Source of the DNA: Pseudoxanthomonas sp. F37
GTDB lineage: Bacteria > Pseudomonadota > Gammaproteobacteria > Xanthomonadales > Xanthomonadaceae
DNA: 64,000 nt
Direction: 5' to 3'
Assembly: GCF_022965755.1 (NCBI RefSeq)
Contig: NZ_CP095187.1
Span: 2,046,001-2,110,000 of the forward strand
The translations under genes were made by a program, and so were the position numbers. The number at the start of each line of letters is the position of its first letter. Position 1 is the first letter of the stretch. Positions 12,751 to 17,739 of the stretch are shown here, one piece after another. Under the pieces are notes generated by a model. The model did not search any database. It was not told the DNA's origin and was given only the letters and a program-made list of their open reading frames with translations.

Positions 12751-14253
12751 TCAGAAGTTGATCGGAACGCGCGCGGTGAGCGTCAGGTCCGGCGTATCGC
12801 GGGTGACGCCCACGCCCAGAGCGACATTCAACGACATGCGGTCGCTGAAGCGGTACGTGCCGCCCAGCAGCAGCGTGCCCAGCGTGGTGCGCACCGCACC
12901 GGCGACTTCCCGCCCGTCCTGCTTGGTCTTGCCGACGATGCTCTGGTCGTAACCGATGCTGATGGCGGCCTTCTCGTTCAACGCCAGGCCCATGCCCAGG
13001 TTGAAGCCGATGATGTCGCCGGCCTTGATGTCGCCCAGGAACTCGGTCTGCCCGCCCAGCACCCGGCGCGAGACGTTGCTGCGCTTGAAGTTGTGCAGGT
13101 AGCTGAAGCTGCCGAAGAACACCACCGGGTCGGAGGGATAGAGCCAGGTCAGGCCGGGCTGCAGTGCATTGAAGCCGCTGCCTGTCGGCAGGTCCAGCGG
13201 CAGGCCGGTACCGGTGGTGTTGGCCACGCAGCGGGTCACGCAATCGGTGGTCACGTCGAACAGGTCCTGTCCTGTCCTGCTCTTGTAACGCAGCCAGGCG
13301 ATGTAGAACGGCTTGTCCGGGCCGCCGCGGTTGAGCTGGTAGCGGCCGGTCACCTCCACGTCGCCCATGCCGCTGCCGCGCGCGTTGAACACGCGGTCCT
13401 GCGCCGAGCCGGTGAAGATCTCGCGGCTGACGGTGTCGCTGTGGATGTAGACGTACGGCAGCTTGGCTTCCACCTCCATGCGCCGGCTCACGCCATAGCG
13501 GCCGGTCAGCGTGGCCACGGCCGTGGTGGTCTTGACCTGGCGCACGTCGATCAGGCCGATCAGGATGGCCGGGATGATGGTGTAGCCCACCAGCGCGACG
13601 CGGTCGTTGGCCGAGTAGCCGTACTGCAGGGCCGGCTCCAGCACCAGCTTGTTCTTGGGCGTCAGTACGCCGGGCTGGTCGAAGATCTGCGCCACTTCCG
13701 GCGGACGCGTGTCGCTCTCGGGCGCTTGCCCCACGCGCTGCGGCGCCTGCGTGCCCTCCGCCTGCCGCTGCGCAGGCGCACCGGCCTGCGCGACCTGCGC
13801 GCCTTGGGGAGCGGATGCCACCGGTGCGACGGCGGCGGACGCCGGTTGCGGTGCGGGACCGACCACGATGTAGGTAGGCTCGGGCGTGGGCGCGGGCGTG
13901 TCGCGGAAGGTCGGCCCCTGGTTCAGCGACGGCACGATGACCGGTGCGGGCGCACCGCGTGCGCGCGCATTGGCCAGGATCTCCTCGTTCAACGCATTCT
14001 GCAGGCTGAAGATCTGCTGCTCCTGCGCCAGCATCGCCTCGCGCATCTGCTGCAGGCGCTGGGTCTGTTCGTTGAGTTGGCGCTGCAGCGCGTCCAGGCG
14101 CGCGTCGGCGGTGATCTCGTACGGCTGCAGGGGGATCGGCGGTACGGGGGGAGCGGGATCGACCGGCGCCTGCGCCCTGGCCTGTCCGGCCTGCACGCTC
14201 AGGCCCACGGCAAGCGCCAGCGGTGCCACTTCGATCAGAGACGTCCCTTTCAT
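12751..14253 (-). CDS. FapF-like outer-membrane beta-barrel with N-terminal coiled coil
   Basis: The 500-residue product has a signal peptide (residues 1-28), a coiled-coil segment at about 48-97 (DARLDALQRQLNEQTQRLQQ onward, Gln/Leu heptads), a long Pro/Ala/Gln linker (100-185), and a beta-barrel from about 200 ending in the terminal Phe of outer-membrane proteins (ARVPINF). The order coiled coil, linker, barrel is that of FapF, the export pore of Fap amyloid fibrils; the barrel also resembles phenol-degradation (MetA) type transporters. It is the last gene of the five-gene minus-strand operon with a C39 peptidase two genes upstream. The FapF assignment rests on architecture and context, not on a database search. 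Confidence 0.7.
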   Translation of the reverse strand: MKGTSLIEVAPLALAVGLSVQAGQARAQAPVDPAPPVPPIPLQPYEITADARLDALQRQLNEQTQRLQQMREAMLAQEQQIFSLQNALNEEILANARARGAPAPVIVPSLNQGPTFRDTPAPTPEPTYIVVGPAPQPASAAVAPVASAPQGAQVAQAGAPAQRQAEGTQAPQRVGQAPESDTRPPEVAQIFDQPGVLTPKNKLVLEPALQYGYSANDRVALVGYTIIPAILIGLIDVRQVKTTTAVATLTGRYGVSRRMEVEAKLPYVYIHSDTVSREIFTGSAQDRVFNARGSGMGDVEVTGRYQLNRGGPDKPFYIAWLRYKSRTGQDLFDVTTDCVTRCVANTTGTGLPLDLPTGSGFNALQPGLTWLYPSDPVVFFGSFSYLHNFKRSNVSRRVLGGQTEFLGDIKAGDIIGFNLGMGLALNEKAAISIGYDQSIVGKTKQDGREVAGAVRTTLGTLLLGGTYRFSDRMSLNVALGVGVTRDTPDLTLTARVPINF

Positions 14254-14292
14254 GGTGTTCCCCTTCGTGTACGTGGAGGACGGCGTGCGCGA

Positions 14293-14796
14293 TCAGGGGC
14301 CGCCCGGCGTGCGGATCAGCGCATCCGTCAGTGCGCCATTGGCATTGAGGTTCTGGTAGGCGCCCAGCGTGTCCGTGCCCACCTCGATGCGGGTGAGCGT
14401 GCGGATGTCCTGGTCGTCCAGGGTGTTCTGGATGACCAGCCCGCCGGCGCCCTGGGCCGGATCGAAGCGGTTGCCCTCGCCGATCTGCACCACCATGCCG
14501 CGGTTGAAGTCGGCCAGGGCCTGTGCCTGTTCGGGCGTGATGCGCGCCACGTCGGGAATCCGCACGGCGATGCGCGCGGTCAGTTCGCCATTGAGGAAGA
14601 CCACGCGCTCGATGCCGAAGGACAGCATCATGCCCGAGGGCATCTGGAAGCCGCCGCGCATCTGCGCCAGACGCGCCGGATCCACCGGCCGCCATTCGGC
14701 GCCCAGTTCGCCGCCCTGCCCGCGCGCGCCGGAAGGAACCAGCAGTACCGCCAGCAGCAGCGCCAGGCGCAGGCCCGGGTGTGCTCTTGCGTCCAT
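14293..14796 (-). CDS. small secreted protein of the Fap-like operon (FapE-like position)
   Basis: The 167-residue protein has a signal peptide (MDARAHPGLRLALLLAVLLV, cleavage near ARG-QG). Its C-terminal half contains GGLVIQNTLDDQDIRTLTRI and VGTDTLGAYQNLNANGALTD. The VIQN-type strand resembles segments in the 140-residue and 508-residue proteins encoded upstream. Its start is one base from the C39 peptidase stop, so it is translated with it. By order it sits where FapE lies in fap operons (between FapD and FapF). No cysteine-x-cysteine motif of Pseudomonas Fap subunits is present. Confidence 0.6.
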   Translation of the reverse strand: MDARAHPGLRLALLLAVLLVPSGARGQGGELGAEWRPVDPARLAQMRGGFQMPSGMMLSFGIERVVFLNGELTARIAVRIPDVARITPEQAQALADFNRGMVVQIGEGNRFDPAQGAGGLVIQNTLDDQDIRTLTRIEVGTDTLGAYQNLNANGALTDALIRTPGGP

Positions 14797-14797
14797 G

Positions 14798-15502
14798 TCA
14801 GATATCTCCAGGGCCGCGCCGGGGCACGGTGACGTTGCGCAGGCCATCGCGCTGGATTCCCATGTCGAGCGGCGCCGGGGGAGCGGTCTGCCAGTCGCGG
14901 GCCTGGTTGAAGCGGGCGCGTTGGCGCTGGTTGTGCACCACGAACATCACCCGGTTGTCCCACAGCGCCTCGAAGCGCGAGCGCGGCATCGCACGCGTGC
15001 CGCGCGCCGGATCGCCCAGCAGCACGCGGCCTTCGCGCAGCCCCTTCACCACGACGAAGTGGCGGTAGCCGCGGTCGTTGAGCAGCACGATGGCCGGGAC
15101 GTTCTCCTGCTGCAGCTTGTCCAGCGGCAGCTCGAAGCCGTCGGCCTCGTAGCCTTTCGATCGCAGGTAGCGGCGCATGTCCAGCAGCGAGAAGCCTTCC
15201 TTGCGGATGCGCGCCTGGTCGCCGTTGTTGTACATCTGCACGAACACGTCCACTTCGCTGACCGGATGTCCGTACTGGTGGGTCAGCAGCGTGGCCGTGG
15301 CCGCCGAGCCGCAGCTGAAGTCGTACTGCTGCGGCAGCGTGGTCTTGAAACGTGCTTCCTTCAGGCTGGTCAGGCGCACGTTGTAGGCGCCGCCGGGGAC
15401 GCGCACGTCGCTGGTGGCGGCCGACGCGCCGCCCAGTCCGGCGAACGCGCAGGCCAATGCCGCGTAGGCAGGCCATCGCCAGGAGCGGACGCGGCGTTTC
15501 AT
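14798..15502 (-). CDS. C39-type cysteine peptidase (FapD-like)
   Basis: The 234-residue protein begins with a signal or membrane-anchor segment (residues 10-30), followed by a papain-like C39 domain: QQYDFSCGSAATATLLTHQY with nucleophile Cys64 and oxyanion Gln59, YRHFVVVKG with His148, and LLGDPARG with Asp164. C39 domains cleave double-glycine leaders in peptide export; in fap operons the equivalent gene, fapD, encodes a periplasmic C39 protease needed for fibril export. The start ATG at 15502 overlaps the stop of the upstream gene (ATGA), so they are coupled. It is not fused to an ABC transporter, which argues against bacteriocin export. Confidence 0.82.
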   Translation of the reverse strand: MKRRVRSWRWPAYAALACAFAGLGGASAATSDVRVPGGAYNVRLTSLKEARFKTTLPQQYDFSCGSAATATLLTHQYGHPVSEVDVFVQMYNNGDQARIRKEGFSLLDMRRYLRSKGYEADGFELPLDKLQQENVPAIVLLNDRGYRHFVVVKGLREGRVLLGDPARGTRAMPRSRFEALWDNRVMFVVHNQRQRARFNQARDWQTAPPAPLDMGIQRDGLRNVTVPRRGPGDI

Positions 15503-15921
15503 TGCGGGCCGCCGGCGAAGTCGACGGTCACGATCATCGCGTTCTGGATCAGCACGTTGCTGCCGGAATTCTGGATGACCGTGTTGATGCCGCTGGCGTT
15601 GGTGAACGCGCCATCGGCGATGCTGTTGCTGCCGCTGGTGATGTGGTGCGCCGTGTTGTCGTCCACCGAACCATCGACATCGATGAGGTTCTCGGTCTGG
15701 CTGCTGTCGCCGCCCCGCAGGCTGGACAGCCGGTCCACCGCGATGGCGTGGCCCAGTTCGCTGACCGCCACCACGGGAACCTCCGGAACCGGGGTTTCGA
15801 AGAAGGGAACGGGCGTCCCTCCGGCGCCGGCAGGGGGGCCGTCTGCGGCCGAAGCGCCGAACGCCAGGACAAGCAGTCCCCAGGTTGCCATGCGCAACCC
15901 GGCCTGTTGGTGCGTATGCAT
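15499..15921 (-). CDS. small secreted protein with Fap-like Gln/Asn motif
   Basis: The 140-residue product has a signal peptide (MHTHQQAGLRMATWGLLVLA, cleavage near ASA-AD), a Pro/Val-rich linker, and a C-terminal region SGINTVIQNSGSNVLIQNAM ending VTVDFAGGPQ. The IQNSGSN-IQN repeat is like the last 30 residues of the 508-residue protein encoded upstream (VAAQNSGMASLIQQ). GGGAG 7 bases before the ATG at 15921 supports the start. It may be a minor or nucleating fibril subunit. The two hairpins at 15961-16029 separate it from the putative major subunit gene. Confidence 0.6.
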   Translation of the reverse strand: MHTHQQAGLRMATWGLLVLAFGASAADGPPAGAGGTPVPFFETPVPEVPVVAVSELGHAIAVDRLSSLRGGDSSQTENLIDVDGSVDDNTAHHITSGSNSIADGAFTNASGINTVIQNSGSNVLIQNAMIVTVDFAGGPQ

Positions 15922-15960
15922 GGTCAGTCTCCCTTGCCATGCGTCCACCGCGCGGCCTCG

Positions 15961-15988
15961 AGGCGCCCCGCCGCGAAGCGGGGCGCCT
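15961..15988. other. strong hairpin in the operon leader of the export genes
   Basis: An 11-bp perfect stem (AGGCGCCCCGC pairing with GCGGGGCGCCT) has a 6-base loop and no T-tract on either strand. It lies 40 bases upstream of the small-subunit gene start (15921) and downstream of the putative amyloid gene. Confidence 0.6.
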
Positions 15989-16002
15989 GGCGTCCGCACG
16001 GA

Positions 16003-16029
16003 GCGTCCCGGCCCTGCTGGCCGGGACGC
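16003..16029. other. strong hairpin directly after the putative amyloid gene
   Basis: An 11-bp perfect stem (GCGTCCCGGCC pairing with GGCCGGGACGC) has a 5-base loop and begins 12 bases after the stop codon of the 508-residue protein gene. There is no T-tract, so it is more likely an mRNA 3' stabiliser or partial attenuator than a simple terminator. Confidence 0.6.
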
Positions 16030-16040
16030 CTGCGGATCGC

Positions 16041-17567
16041 TTATGGGCCTACGGTCAGGTTGGCTTGGACGGTGATGCCCTGCTGGATCAGCGAGGCCAT
16101 GCCGCTGTTCTGCGCGGCCACCATGATGCCGGCCGCCGACTGCCCGACGCTCGTCATGTTGTTGGACATGTCGAACGCGCCCGCATCCACCGCGACGGAA
16201 CCGCCGGCACCGCCGGCACCGCCGGTCGCGCCGTTGCCCACGCCACCGTTGCCGTCACCGCCGTTGCCGTCGCCGCCGTTGCCGACGCCGCCCGCACCAC
16301 CGGTCGCACCCACCGCGCCGCTGGCGCCGTTGCCGGCCGTGGCGTCGCCATTGCTGGCGCTGGACGAGGCGCCGCCGTTGGTGGCATCGCCGTTGCTGGC
16401 ATCGCCGCCATCGCCGCCGTTGCCTGCGGTCGCCGTCACGCTGCCGCCGGCCCCGCCCCAGCCACTGCCCGCACCACCGGTCGCGGTGGCATCGCCACCC
16501 GTGCCGGAGCCTGCGCCGCCGGTGCCGGAGCCGTCGCCGCCGGTACCCGTGCCGTCGCCGGAGGTACCCGCACCCGCGGTCGCCGTGCTGGCGCCACCGG
16601 TGGCGGTGGCATCGCCCGAGGTCCCGGCGCCGCCGGTTGCCGTGCCGTCGCCGCTGGTGCCGTCGCCATTGCCGCGCTCGCGCACGTTGCCGCTGCCCGC
16701 ACCGGCGTCGCCGCCGGAGGCACCGGCGATGGAACCGGTGTGGCCGCTCATGCTGCCGGCATCGCCGCCGGAGGCACCACTGGCGCCGCCGCCGTCGCCG
16801 CCCCAGCCGCCGGCATCGCCGCCGCGGCCACGACCGTCGCCGGCCGTCGCGTTGCCGTCGGCGCCCCATCCCTGGCCGTCGCCGCCATTGGCGCCGCCGG
16901 TGTCGTTGGCGTTGCCGCCGCGTCCGCCGTTGCCGGCCGTCGCATCGCCGATGGTGGCGCTGCCGTTGGACGAGTCGCCCGCGGTCGCGCTGCCGTTGTT
17001 GGCATCACCGCCACTGCCGCCGCTGCCACCGTTGCCGCCATCACCGCCGTCGCCGCCATAGCCGGTGCCGCCGGCCGCGCTTCCGCCGTATCCCTTGCCG
17101 CCGTAGCCGGCGCCGCCCTTGCCACCGCTGCCGCCATTGGCGTCGCCCCAGTTCTGCGCGACGTTGCCTATGTCGTGCACGGTGACGCCCGACACCGAGC
17201 CCATGAGCTTGGTTTCGGCGACCGCCTTGCTGTGGTTGAAGGAGTTGGAGAAGGTGGACGTGGCCGTGCTGCCGTTGTTGGCGGCGGTCGAGCCGAACCC
17301 TTCCGCATTGGCGCGTCCCCGGTTGTCGCGGTTGTCGCCGTCGTGGGAGCTGTTGTCGCTGTGATCGGAATTGTCGGAGTTGTCCGAGTTGTCGCTGTTG
17401 TCGCTGTTGTCCGTGTTGGTGCTGTTGTTGCTCATGTCCACAGCGAGATTGACCAGGATGTCGTCACCCAGTCCGCTCTCGTTGTTGGTCTGTTGCGCGA
17501 GTGCCTGTCCCGTCGTACCGAGTGCCAGCAGTACCGCCGATGCGATCAGTGTCTTGCGAATGCACAT
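16041..17567 (-). CDS. secreted Gly/Asn/Ser-rich repeat protein, putative major amyloid subunit
   Basis: The 508-residue product has a signal peptide (cleavage near ALA-QQ, residue 24), then DDILVNLAVDMSNN, a tandem DNS repeat block (about residues 52-72), and a conserved-looking segment with SVSGVTVHDIGNVAQNW at about 124-140. A 320-residue Gly/Asp/Ala/Thr/Asn low-complexity region (141-462) follows. The C-terminal segment FDMSNNMTSVGQSAAGIMVA and AQNSGMASLIQQGITVQANL resembles amyloid repeat motifs of Fap and curli proteins (alternating hydrophobic and Gln/Asn). It has no cysteine after the signal peptide. AAGGAG 7 bases before the ATG is a strong ribosome-binding site, consistent with high expression. 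It is the first gene of the operon. The amyloid role is inferred. Confidence 0.65.
   Translation of the reverse strand: MCIRKTLIASAVLLALGTTGQALAQQTNNESGLGDDILVNLAVDMSNNSTNTDNSDNSDNSDNSDNSDHSDNSSHDGDNRDNRGRANAEGFGSTAANNGSTATSTFSNSFNHSKAVAETKLMGSVSGVTVHDIGNVAQNWGDANGGSGGKGGAGYGGKGYGGSAAGGTGYGGDGGDGGNGGSGGSGGDANNGSATAGDSSNGSATIGDATAGNGGRGGNANDTGGANGGDGQGWGADGNATAGDGRGRGGDAGGWGGDGGGASGASGGDAGSMSGHTGSIAGASGGDAGAGSGNVRERGNGDGTSGDGTATGGAGTSGDATATGGASTATAGAGTSGDGTGTGGDGSGTGGAGSGTGGDATATGGAGSGWGGAGGSVTATAGNGGDGGDASNGDATNGGASSSASNGDATAGNGASGAVGATGGAGGVGNGGDGNGGDGNGGVGNGATGGAGGAGGSVAVDAGAFDMSNNMTSVGQSAAGIMVAAQNSGMASLIQQGITVQANLTVGP
17340..17425. repeat. 9-bp tandem repeat encoding Asp-Asn-Ser units
   Basis: About eight imperfect copies of a 9-base unit (on the plus strand GTTGTCGCT, GTTGTCCGA, GTTGTCGGA and similar) lie inside the putative amyloid gene and encode the DNS-DNS-DNS run. 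The unit is a multiple of three, so copy-number change alters protein length without shifting frame. Confidence 0.8.
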
Positions 17568-17739
17568 GTTGATTCTCCTTGTGGTCGATCCGGAGCCCAG
17601 GGGAAGCCCCTAAAGAGCGACGCGGGTCACGTTTGCACGGGAATCGTTAGGCCTGCCCGCCTCTGGCGTTAAATTTCCGTTCGGGCACGCGCCGCTCGTC
17701 CGCAGGCGGACCGGGGCTGTCATCAGCGCGTTGGAGGTG

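Follow-up and report, generated by a model that had tools for sequence, protein, structure and literature searches.

A putative second type of Fap-like secretion operon in Pseudoxanthomonas, with C39-type leaders predicted in its FapE homologue and in a small secreted protein

The window analysed here is the whole stretch of 64,000 nucleotides from Pseudoxanthomonas sp. F37 (contig NZ_CP095187.1, positions 2,046,001 to 2,110,000), and the subject is a run of five adjacent minus-strand open reading frames (ORFs), genes A to E, spanning 12751-17567 (Table 1). A first-pass annotation, made from the letters alone, had taken this run for a diverged relative of the Fap functional-amyloid export operon of Pseudomonas and had suggested that it may represent a class of Xanthomonadaceae. 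All five ORFs were found in the ORF listing where it had placed them, and they are not a chance series, since relatives carry the same five-gene set together. By eye, each of the five proteins starts with what looks like a signal peptide; in A this is followed by an Asn/Asp/Ser stretch, a short conserved region, a Gly-rich core and a C-terminal module. The host genome has one FapF match and one FapD match, and the nearest relatives of D and B with a named source are those of Pseudoxanthomonas, including P. mexicana (about 84-86% identity). In what follows, L-numbers denote loci fetched from other genomes, type II loci being like the window operon and type I loci being classical fap; papers are cited by PMC number.

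Table 1 Features of the five-gene operon and its surroundings in the window
Feature	Position	Strand	Basis
Gene A (508 aa), putatively the major subunit that is secreted	16041..17567	-	ORF; relatives with the same C-terminal module
Gly-rich low-complexity core of A, about residues 142-455	16203..17144	-	composition
Conserved C-terminal module of A, residues 457-508	16044..16199	-	relatives; homology to the B C-terminus
Gene B (140 aa), small secreted partner that may be a minor subunit or a nucleator	15499..15921	-	ORF; relatives
Predicted C39-type double-glycine leader of B: I60 (-12), L65 (-7), L68 (-4), R69 G70 G71, then D72	15706..15744	-	B relatives, position profile
Gene C (234 aa), C39 cysteine peptidase of FapD type, presumably periplasmic	14798..15502	-	NCBIfam C39_FapD, Peptidase_C39, catalytic residues
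Gene D, FapE homologue (FapE'), 167 aa	14293..14796	-	position flanked by FapD and FapF; hhalign
Predicted C39-type double-glycine leader of D: V38 (-12), L43 (-7), M46 (-4), R47 G48 G49, then F50	14647..14685	-	predicted FapD cut after G49
Gene E (500 aa), outer-membrane barrel of FapF type that has a coiled-coil-like stretch at the N-terminus and a linker	12751..14253	-	5o67 and NCBIfam FapF
Plug region of E, PPEVAQIFDQPGVLTP	13657..13704	-	alignment of 11 example rows
Two long GC-rich hairpins directly 3' of the A stop codon	15960..16030	-	folding versus single-base shuffles

Residues 180-499 of E match the solved Pseudomonas FapF barrel 5o67 (E-value 1.1e-28), and the protein matches NCBIfam FapF (7.1e-43); Pfam Phenol_MetA_deg is reached at 21.2 bits, just short of its 22-bit cut-off. 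C is nearest to NCBIfam C39_FapD (1.2e-39), followed by FilB (2.6e-34) and, far behind, by the NHLP-type bacteriocin ATP-binding cassette (ABC) transporters (2.8e-12), and it matches Pfam Peptidase_C39 (1.4e-20). The first-pass annotation had named an unrelated porin and a bacteriocin-family C39 domain as two of the outcomes that would speak against it; both comparisons were run, and they returned the solved FapF and a FapD-type peptidase. The intact Cys-His-Asp that it had reported is Cys64, His148 and Asp164 of C, which together with Gln58 are kept in 38/38 type II FapD, and C also carries the Sec signal of FapD, as read from its sequence. D has no Pfam or NCBIfam match; it stands between FapD and FapF as FapE does, shares the FapE leader described below, and its family aligns with type I FapE in a profile-profile comparison (hhalign probability 77%, E-value 2.4e-6), which upholds the proposed order FapD, FapE, FapF. 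The plug region of FapF reads VLTP in 6 type II rows, FF in 2 Pseudomonas rows and a single F in the 3 other type I rows. We conclude that C, D and E almost certainly form a FapDEF-type exporter and that, judged by its proteins, the type II operon works like Fap in its export part.

FapE contains one short conserved segment near its N-terminus, in type I and type II alike, and in both types this segment matches at the sequence level the leader pattern published for C39 substrates, L(-12)xxxE(-8)L(-7)xxxxG(-2)G(-1), with specificity from -4 (PMC6959990). Sites were picked with the pattern [LM]...[RSTNQ]G[GRK][FYW], positions -12 and -4 playing no part in the picking, and L, I, V, M and F were counted as core hydrophobic residues. 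The pattern is present in FapE of 151/152 loci (38/38 type II, 34/34 non-Pseudomonas type I and 79/80 Pseudomonas), where shuffled sequences would be expected to give 0.16, 0.28 and 0.78, and the sole miss (L151) is a short ORF without the N-terminus; elsewhere it occurs in 0/152 FapD, 2/152 FapF and 0/181 FapB/C-like ORFs. A hydrophobic residue stands at -12 in 151/151 of these leaders (38/38, 34/34 and 79/79 in the same order) and at -4 in 145/151 (33/38, 33/34 and 79/79), while -11, -9 and -6 are almost never and -13 is rarely hydrophobic; Glu is found at -8 in 77/79 Pseudomonas and 21/34 other type I sequences. The type II leader, to which D belongs, has Leu(-7) in 38/38 and Gly-Gly in 38/38 and always ends in RGG (38/38), followed by Phe in 31 and Tyr in 7, whereas the type I leader ends in RGR in 79/79 Pseudomonas and in RGR or RGK in 25/34 others, the rest having SGK, TGK, NGR or QGK.

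The 152-locus count omits 7/159 loci with a FapD hit: L043 (interrupted frames), L095 (no FapE located), L119 and L121 (FapF on the other strand from FapD), L127 and L128 (modules of another kind) and L050, whose FapE was missed by picking, though the locus shows one with RGG followed by F; the window's own locus is outside the 152, and L124 has FapF and no FapD in the fetched stretch. FapE were taken by their position between FapD and FapF together with a weak profile score, because a Pseudomonas-seeded type I FapE profile drifted into FapB.

A second leader of this kind lies in B. Of the 42 type II loci, B was picked in 36 (and A in 31), and L...[RST]GG is present in 31/36 B (31/31 from the taxonomic order of the window, 0/5 from elsewhere), with 0.38 expected in shuffles; these 31 leaders are hydrophobic at -12 in 25/31 and at -4 in 26/31 and have Leu(-7) and Gly-Gly in 31/31 each. 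Outside the window's order a B leader is visible by eye in L246 and L247. Among signal-peptide-like ORFs of type II loci, [LM]...[RST]GG is found in 68/156 within the operon region versus 0/74 outside it. We propose that FapD cuts D between RGG and F, which we consider very probable, and it would probably also cut B at its Gly-Gly, a claim that we make a degree less firmly. Since C, B and D all start with Sec-type signals (by eye), the cutting would be periplasmic. Neither the double-glycine leaders of B and D nor the second, distant FapF present in some of the same genomes had figured in the first-pass annotation.

These leaders bear on the target of FapD. FapC secretion in Pseudomonas sp. 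UK4 depends on FapD and its catalytic Cys. N-terminal peptides were missing there for FapE alone among the Fap proteins, with none from its first ~70 residues; the authors favour FapE as the FapD target, call the target unclear and state that the Fap proteins are without canonical C39 sequences (PMC5557850). A 2025 review presents processing of FapF and of the FapE N-terminus as the presumed task of FapD (PMC12822426). The open-licence literature on FapD and FapE since 2018, in the excerpts covered, names no FapD cleavage site (PMC6173795, PMC6173800, PMC7764130, PMC11787515, PMC11942204, PMC9268375, PMC11367570, PMC12822426, PMC8300730, PMC10903470 and PMC12392863). The clean RGG of type II makes the homologous FapE site visible in both types, and the question of the FapD target is reduced to one N-terminal sequencing experiment.

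The distribution of the operon was followed with E in 297 genomes of the host family, the counts resting on the matches listed, down to an E-value of about 1e-10. Among these matches 122/297 genomes have a FapF match: 57 a close (type II) one, 78 a distant one and 15 both, with 2 having a marginal match only. The five-gene set, whose search in relatives had been proposed from the start, does recur: FapD', FapE' and FapF' are present in 20/20 loci fetched from the 57 close-match genomes, with A and B seen in each. FapD lies near FapF in 20/20 loci fetched from the 78 distant-match genomes, and classical fap genes with GNIGVNVAAGVGN-type repeats stand upstream in the 11 of them displayed (L059-L064 and L066-L070). 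FapD', FapE' and FapF' occur in 15/15 loci of a second family (f12) belonging to the window's taxonomic order, fetched out of 16 genomes with a type II-like FapD score, and also in L120, L122, L123, L125 and L126 of further gammaproteobacterial families; FapD', B and FapE' of the type II kind are found in L246-L248, from other families of the class. The type II class extends past Xanthomonadaceae, across several gammaproteobacterial families, and its suggested confinement to the former has to be dropped. A maximum-likelihood tree of 86 FapD has a branch (support 100/98) that sets apart 39/39 type II rows together with L119 and L121, two loci in which FapE' is present; the 42 type I rows are set apart by another branch (98/92). 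This suggests that the split between the types is older than these families; transfer between families may also have taken place. Stenotrophomonas maltophilia has been named among fap carriers (PMC3792158), and fapD-fapF pairs have been mentioned in five further phyla (PMC6173800). A search of the open-licence literature that combined FapF with Xanthomonadaceae gave no paper, which is not proof of absence in print.

The cargo sets the two types apart. The core of A holds 135 Gly in 314 residues (43%), and a Pfam scan of A gave no family. The part kept among relatives is the C-terminal module (AQNSGxxSLIQQxxTVQANL-like), and the C-termini of A and B are homologous (hhalign probability 93%, E-value 3.7e-8). 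Gly makes up 18-31% of the protein in the 16 type II A from the window's order that were picked correctly, in a composition table of 20 loci of which L039 and L094 are mispicked frames, while A of L122 and L126, from other families, has 24% Asn, about 20% Ser and 4% Gly. Compared with 250 type I FapB/FapC repeat windows, type II A and B gave hhalign probabilities of 0.05% and 1.5%, respectively; the score of A (1.8) is within the column-shuffled controls (maximum 12.4) and that of B (13.2) is slightly over 20 column shuffles (maximum 9.5). The first-pass view that the subunit is unlike FapC is supported by this comparison. The further sign it had given, a missing Cys-x-Cys motif, does not hold: the sole Cys of A is residue 2, the Pseudomonas FapC motif is Cys-x-x-Cys, and some Pseudomonas are without it (PMC3684753). 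In a crude pick that left 81 further type I loci unpicked, Cys-x-x-Cys was present in FapC of 19/26 Pseudomonas, 0/6 of the window's order and 0/1 elsewhere; its absence is therefore not distinctive. Thus the earlier reading stands in its FapDEF match and its differing cargo, and falls in its Xanthomonadaceae limit and its Cys motif.

A recent survey recognised Fap by homologues of the FapB/C repeats lying close to further fap genes (PMC12822426), and because A and B fail to match these repeats the type II operon lies outside Fap by that definition. For the same reason fibre or amyloid formation is put forward here by analogy. A is very likely the exported major subunit; that it forms cross-beta amyloid, as the cargo of related machinery does, is conceivable and somewhat doubtful.

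Similar to the Fap systems (fapABCDEF) of Pseudomonas and other Pseudomonadota, the type II operon has the order FapD-FapE-FapF, intact C39 residues, the FapE leader in its place and several proteins with Sec signals. Unlike them, it is without fapA, its A and B are without recognisable FapB/C imperfect repeats, its FapE' is shorter with a leader ending in RGG and not RGR/RGK, its plug is VLTP and not F/FF (in the 11 rows shown), and its FapD form a separate clade. The 'putative pilus' locus Fil of Acinetobacter likewise combines a C39 peptidase with a FapF-like barrel (C against FilB 2.6e-34, E against FilC 1e-9), but C and E score better to FapD and FapF; the locus with the best FilB score among those scored, L230, is still under the cut-off and its cargo is unlike A and B. 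The peptidase-containing ABC transporters PCAT1 and LahT share with type II the C39 fold, the catalytic residues and a leader with -12, -7, -4 and GG, but they couple the cut to an ABC transporter, whereas the type II peptidase and its substrates carry Sec-type signals.

We propose, as the likely reading, that this is a second (type II) Fap-like secretion operon in which FapD cuts FapE' and B and the cargo differs. All five proteins would leave the cytoplasm by Sec. C would dock the C39-type leaders of D and B by their hydrophobic -12, -7 and -4 residues and by Gly-Gly at -2/-1 and would cut both after Gly-Gly, a cut that may serve as the licence for export through FapF. Trimmed D, helped by B, may then prime or open E, and the unfolded low-complexity A would cross the barrel. 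Outside, B and D would organise A via the C-terminal module common to A and B, giving a surface fibre or matrix. We infer the cleavage, the order of events, the activation of E by D and B, the export of A and the formation of fibres from the features described above.

The same genes could be read as an ordinary fap operon that has strongly diverged, with A as FapC, B as FapB, repeats eroded and the product being classical cross-beta Fap fibres. The gene order is indeed that of fap without fapA, whose loss occurs in known fap operons (PMC3792158), the C-terminal module common to A and B parallels the common repeats of FapC and FapB, and NASGINTVIQNSGSN of B looks FapB-repeat-like by eye, B being the protein that scored above its shuffles. 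The repeat probabilities of both proteins and the score of A inside its controls argue against such a divergence, as do the separate clade of type II FapD and the fact that 15/57 type II genomes, among the matches listed, also carry a distant FapF; 4 of those 15 distant loci were fetched and all are classical by FapE. We regard a diverged fap operon as unlikely. A peptide-bacteriocin locus, or one exporting ribosomally synthesised and post-translationally modified peptides, in which B and D would be precursor peptides cut at Gly-Gly, would account for the double-glycine leaders and for a C39 peptidase as C. The five-gene set, however, contains neither an ABC transporter nor a maturase, C is far closer to FapD than to the NHLP-type transporters, and E and D are homologues of FapF and FapE; the combination that marks peptide bacteriocin export, a C39-ABC transporter with a small antimicrobial peptide, is absent from the set, and such export, already thought less likely at first pass for want of a transporter, can be considered highly improbable.

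A more serious alternative concerns the product and not the route: A may be a soluble or gel-like Gly-rich protein of the surface or matrix, polyglycine-II-like or disordered, that is exported by FapF and merely anchored by B and D. Most of A is of low complexity, no secondary structure was assigned in its model, its core composition shifts between Gly-rich and Asn/Ser-rich, and there is a mild excess of Gly at spacing 3 (70 versus 57.5 expected). However, the spacing is not strictly periodic, being also high at 5, 7 and 10, a low-confidence model proves nothing, and relatives of this machinery export amyloid; we consider the gel or matrix product possible but somewhat unlikely. The polyglycine-II periodicity was itself looked for in A and, being weak, was set aside.

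Several observations weigh against the type II operon as we read it. C and E score under the NCBIfam equivalog cut-offs (136 vs 330 and 147 vs 700) and are relatives of, not members within, the FapD and FapF models, while A and B do not match the FapB/C repeats. The AlphaFold models of D (33 relatives, pLDDT 44) and of A (20 relatives, mean pLDDT 43, no assigned secondary structure), pLDDT being the predicted local distance difference test score, are unusable. In the leaders, -14 is also hydrophobic in 79/79 Pseudomonas FapE and -15 in 68% of the remaining type I sequences, few type II leaders (4/38) have Glu at -8, and a clean Gly-Gly is absent in 5/36 B, all outside the window's order. Type I FapE has Arg/Lys at -1, unlike the Gly expected by the known C39 peptidases, whose cleft is narrow and Gly-Gly specific (PMC6959990), so that an altered FapD pocket would be needed. 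[LM]...[RST]GG is not enriched in type I operons (3/597 inside vs 10/314 outside), and its counts in the 64-kb window (1/2 inside, 1/9 outside) are uninformative. The leader counts come from related sequences and are hence not independent events, and the missing FapE peptides of UK4 may partly reflect peptide size.

Beyond the two types, FapD-FapF may constitute a general, cargo-swappable secretion route in which a second C39-type leader, cut by periplasmic FapD, licenses passage through FapF; we find the case for such a route evenly poised. The classical Fap branch would then have its leader in FapE, the type II branch in FapE' and B with a low-complexity cargo, and further FapD-FapF pairs would make up more branches, a scheme on which we are equally divided. 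Next to FapD-FapF pairs outside both classes stand small proteins that have a signal peptide and, as a second leader, a C39-like one (15/90 ORFs, 9/19 loci, by a loose pattern drawn up after viewing such sequences, with some hits weak, such as L240), examples being LSDADMDGVTAG in L234 and LTEAQMDQVSAG in L245. In the two types, where an outside set of ORFs was available for comparison, the same pattern gives 16/156 ORFs inside and 0/74 outside type II operons, and 0/597 inside and 1/314 outside type I operons. These leaders beside outside-class pairs make a general Sec-plus-C39-leader route through FapF a live hypothesis.

Fap has been viewed as an evolutionarily fixed system (PMC12822426), a view that the type II operons qualify. 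The survey required FapB/C repeats (PMC12822426), so operons with other cargo would escape its count. Tolerance of cargo also matters for engineering the export of low-complexity proteins.

A number of further observations were made at the fetched loci. In L234, L245, L238, L127 and L230, unrelated small cargos with Sec signals have leaders (LSDADMDGVTAG, LTEAQMDQVSAG or ALNDTGLEQATGQ) directly behind the signal peptide. Seven FilB/FapD-like C39 peptidase genes occur in one genome (G505), a number that suggests the module has been duplicated repeatedly. FapA of L129-L208 and type I loci has an ELSDxDFAxVSSG-like stretch at about residue 70-120 that is C39-leader-like and was found by a loose pattern in 73 ORFs (66 Pseudomonas, 7 others); it is not claimed as a FapD site, published mass spectrometry having seen peptides across all FapA. 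L122, L123 and L125 have an extra small secreted coiled-coil-like gene between FapE' and FapF', perhaps a separate periplasmic partner. L112 and L118 have FapD and FapF at a distance of about 6 kb, and in L119, L121 and L248 FapF is nearby on the strand opposite to FapD. In L043 (genome G292) type II FapD and FapF are each split into two matching pieces, their frames being interrupted, which may be a sequencing error since the genome is rated 57% complete.

Around the operon, the upstream neighbours are CrcB, MgsA and LolA and the downstream ones a DUF4124 protein and a HemN-like radical SAM protein; no ABC transporter gene lies within the five-gene set, and these 5 flanking genes tested belong to ordinary families. 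Scans for a sigma-70 promoter and a T-run terminator found neither. The hairpins behind A fold with a minimum free energy of -81.3 (z -4.6 against single-base shuffles); of 14 relatives folded, 12 have z <= -2.4 (L041 -1.6, L047 -1.4), and the hairpin sequences vary between relatives. They may act as a 3' stabiliser or attenuator allowing A to be made in excess of B-E. About 50-60 bases upstream of the A start, at 17619-17630, TGAC-N4-GTCG, within the near-palindrome TGTGACxCGCGTCGCT, is conserved in L044, L045 and L046, the nearest relatives, and roughly in L049; we take this element to be CRP/Clp-like, and it could be a Clp (CRP-type) site.

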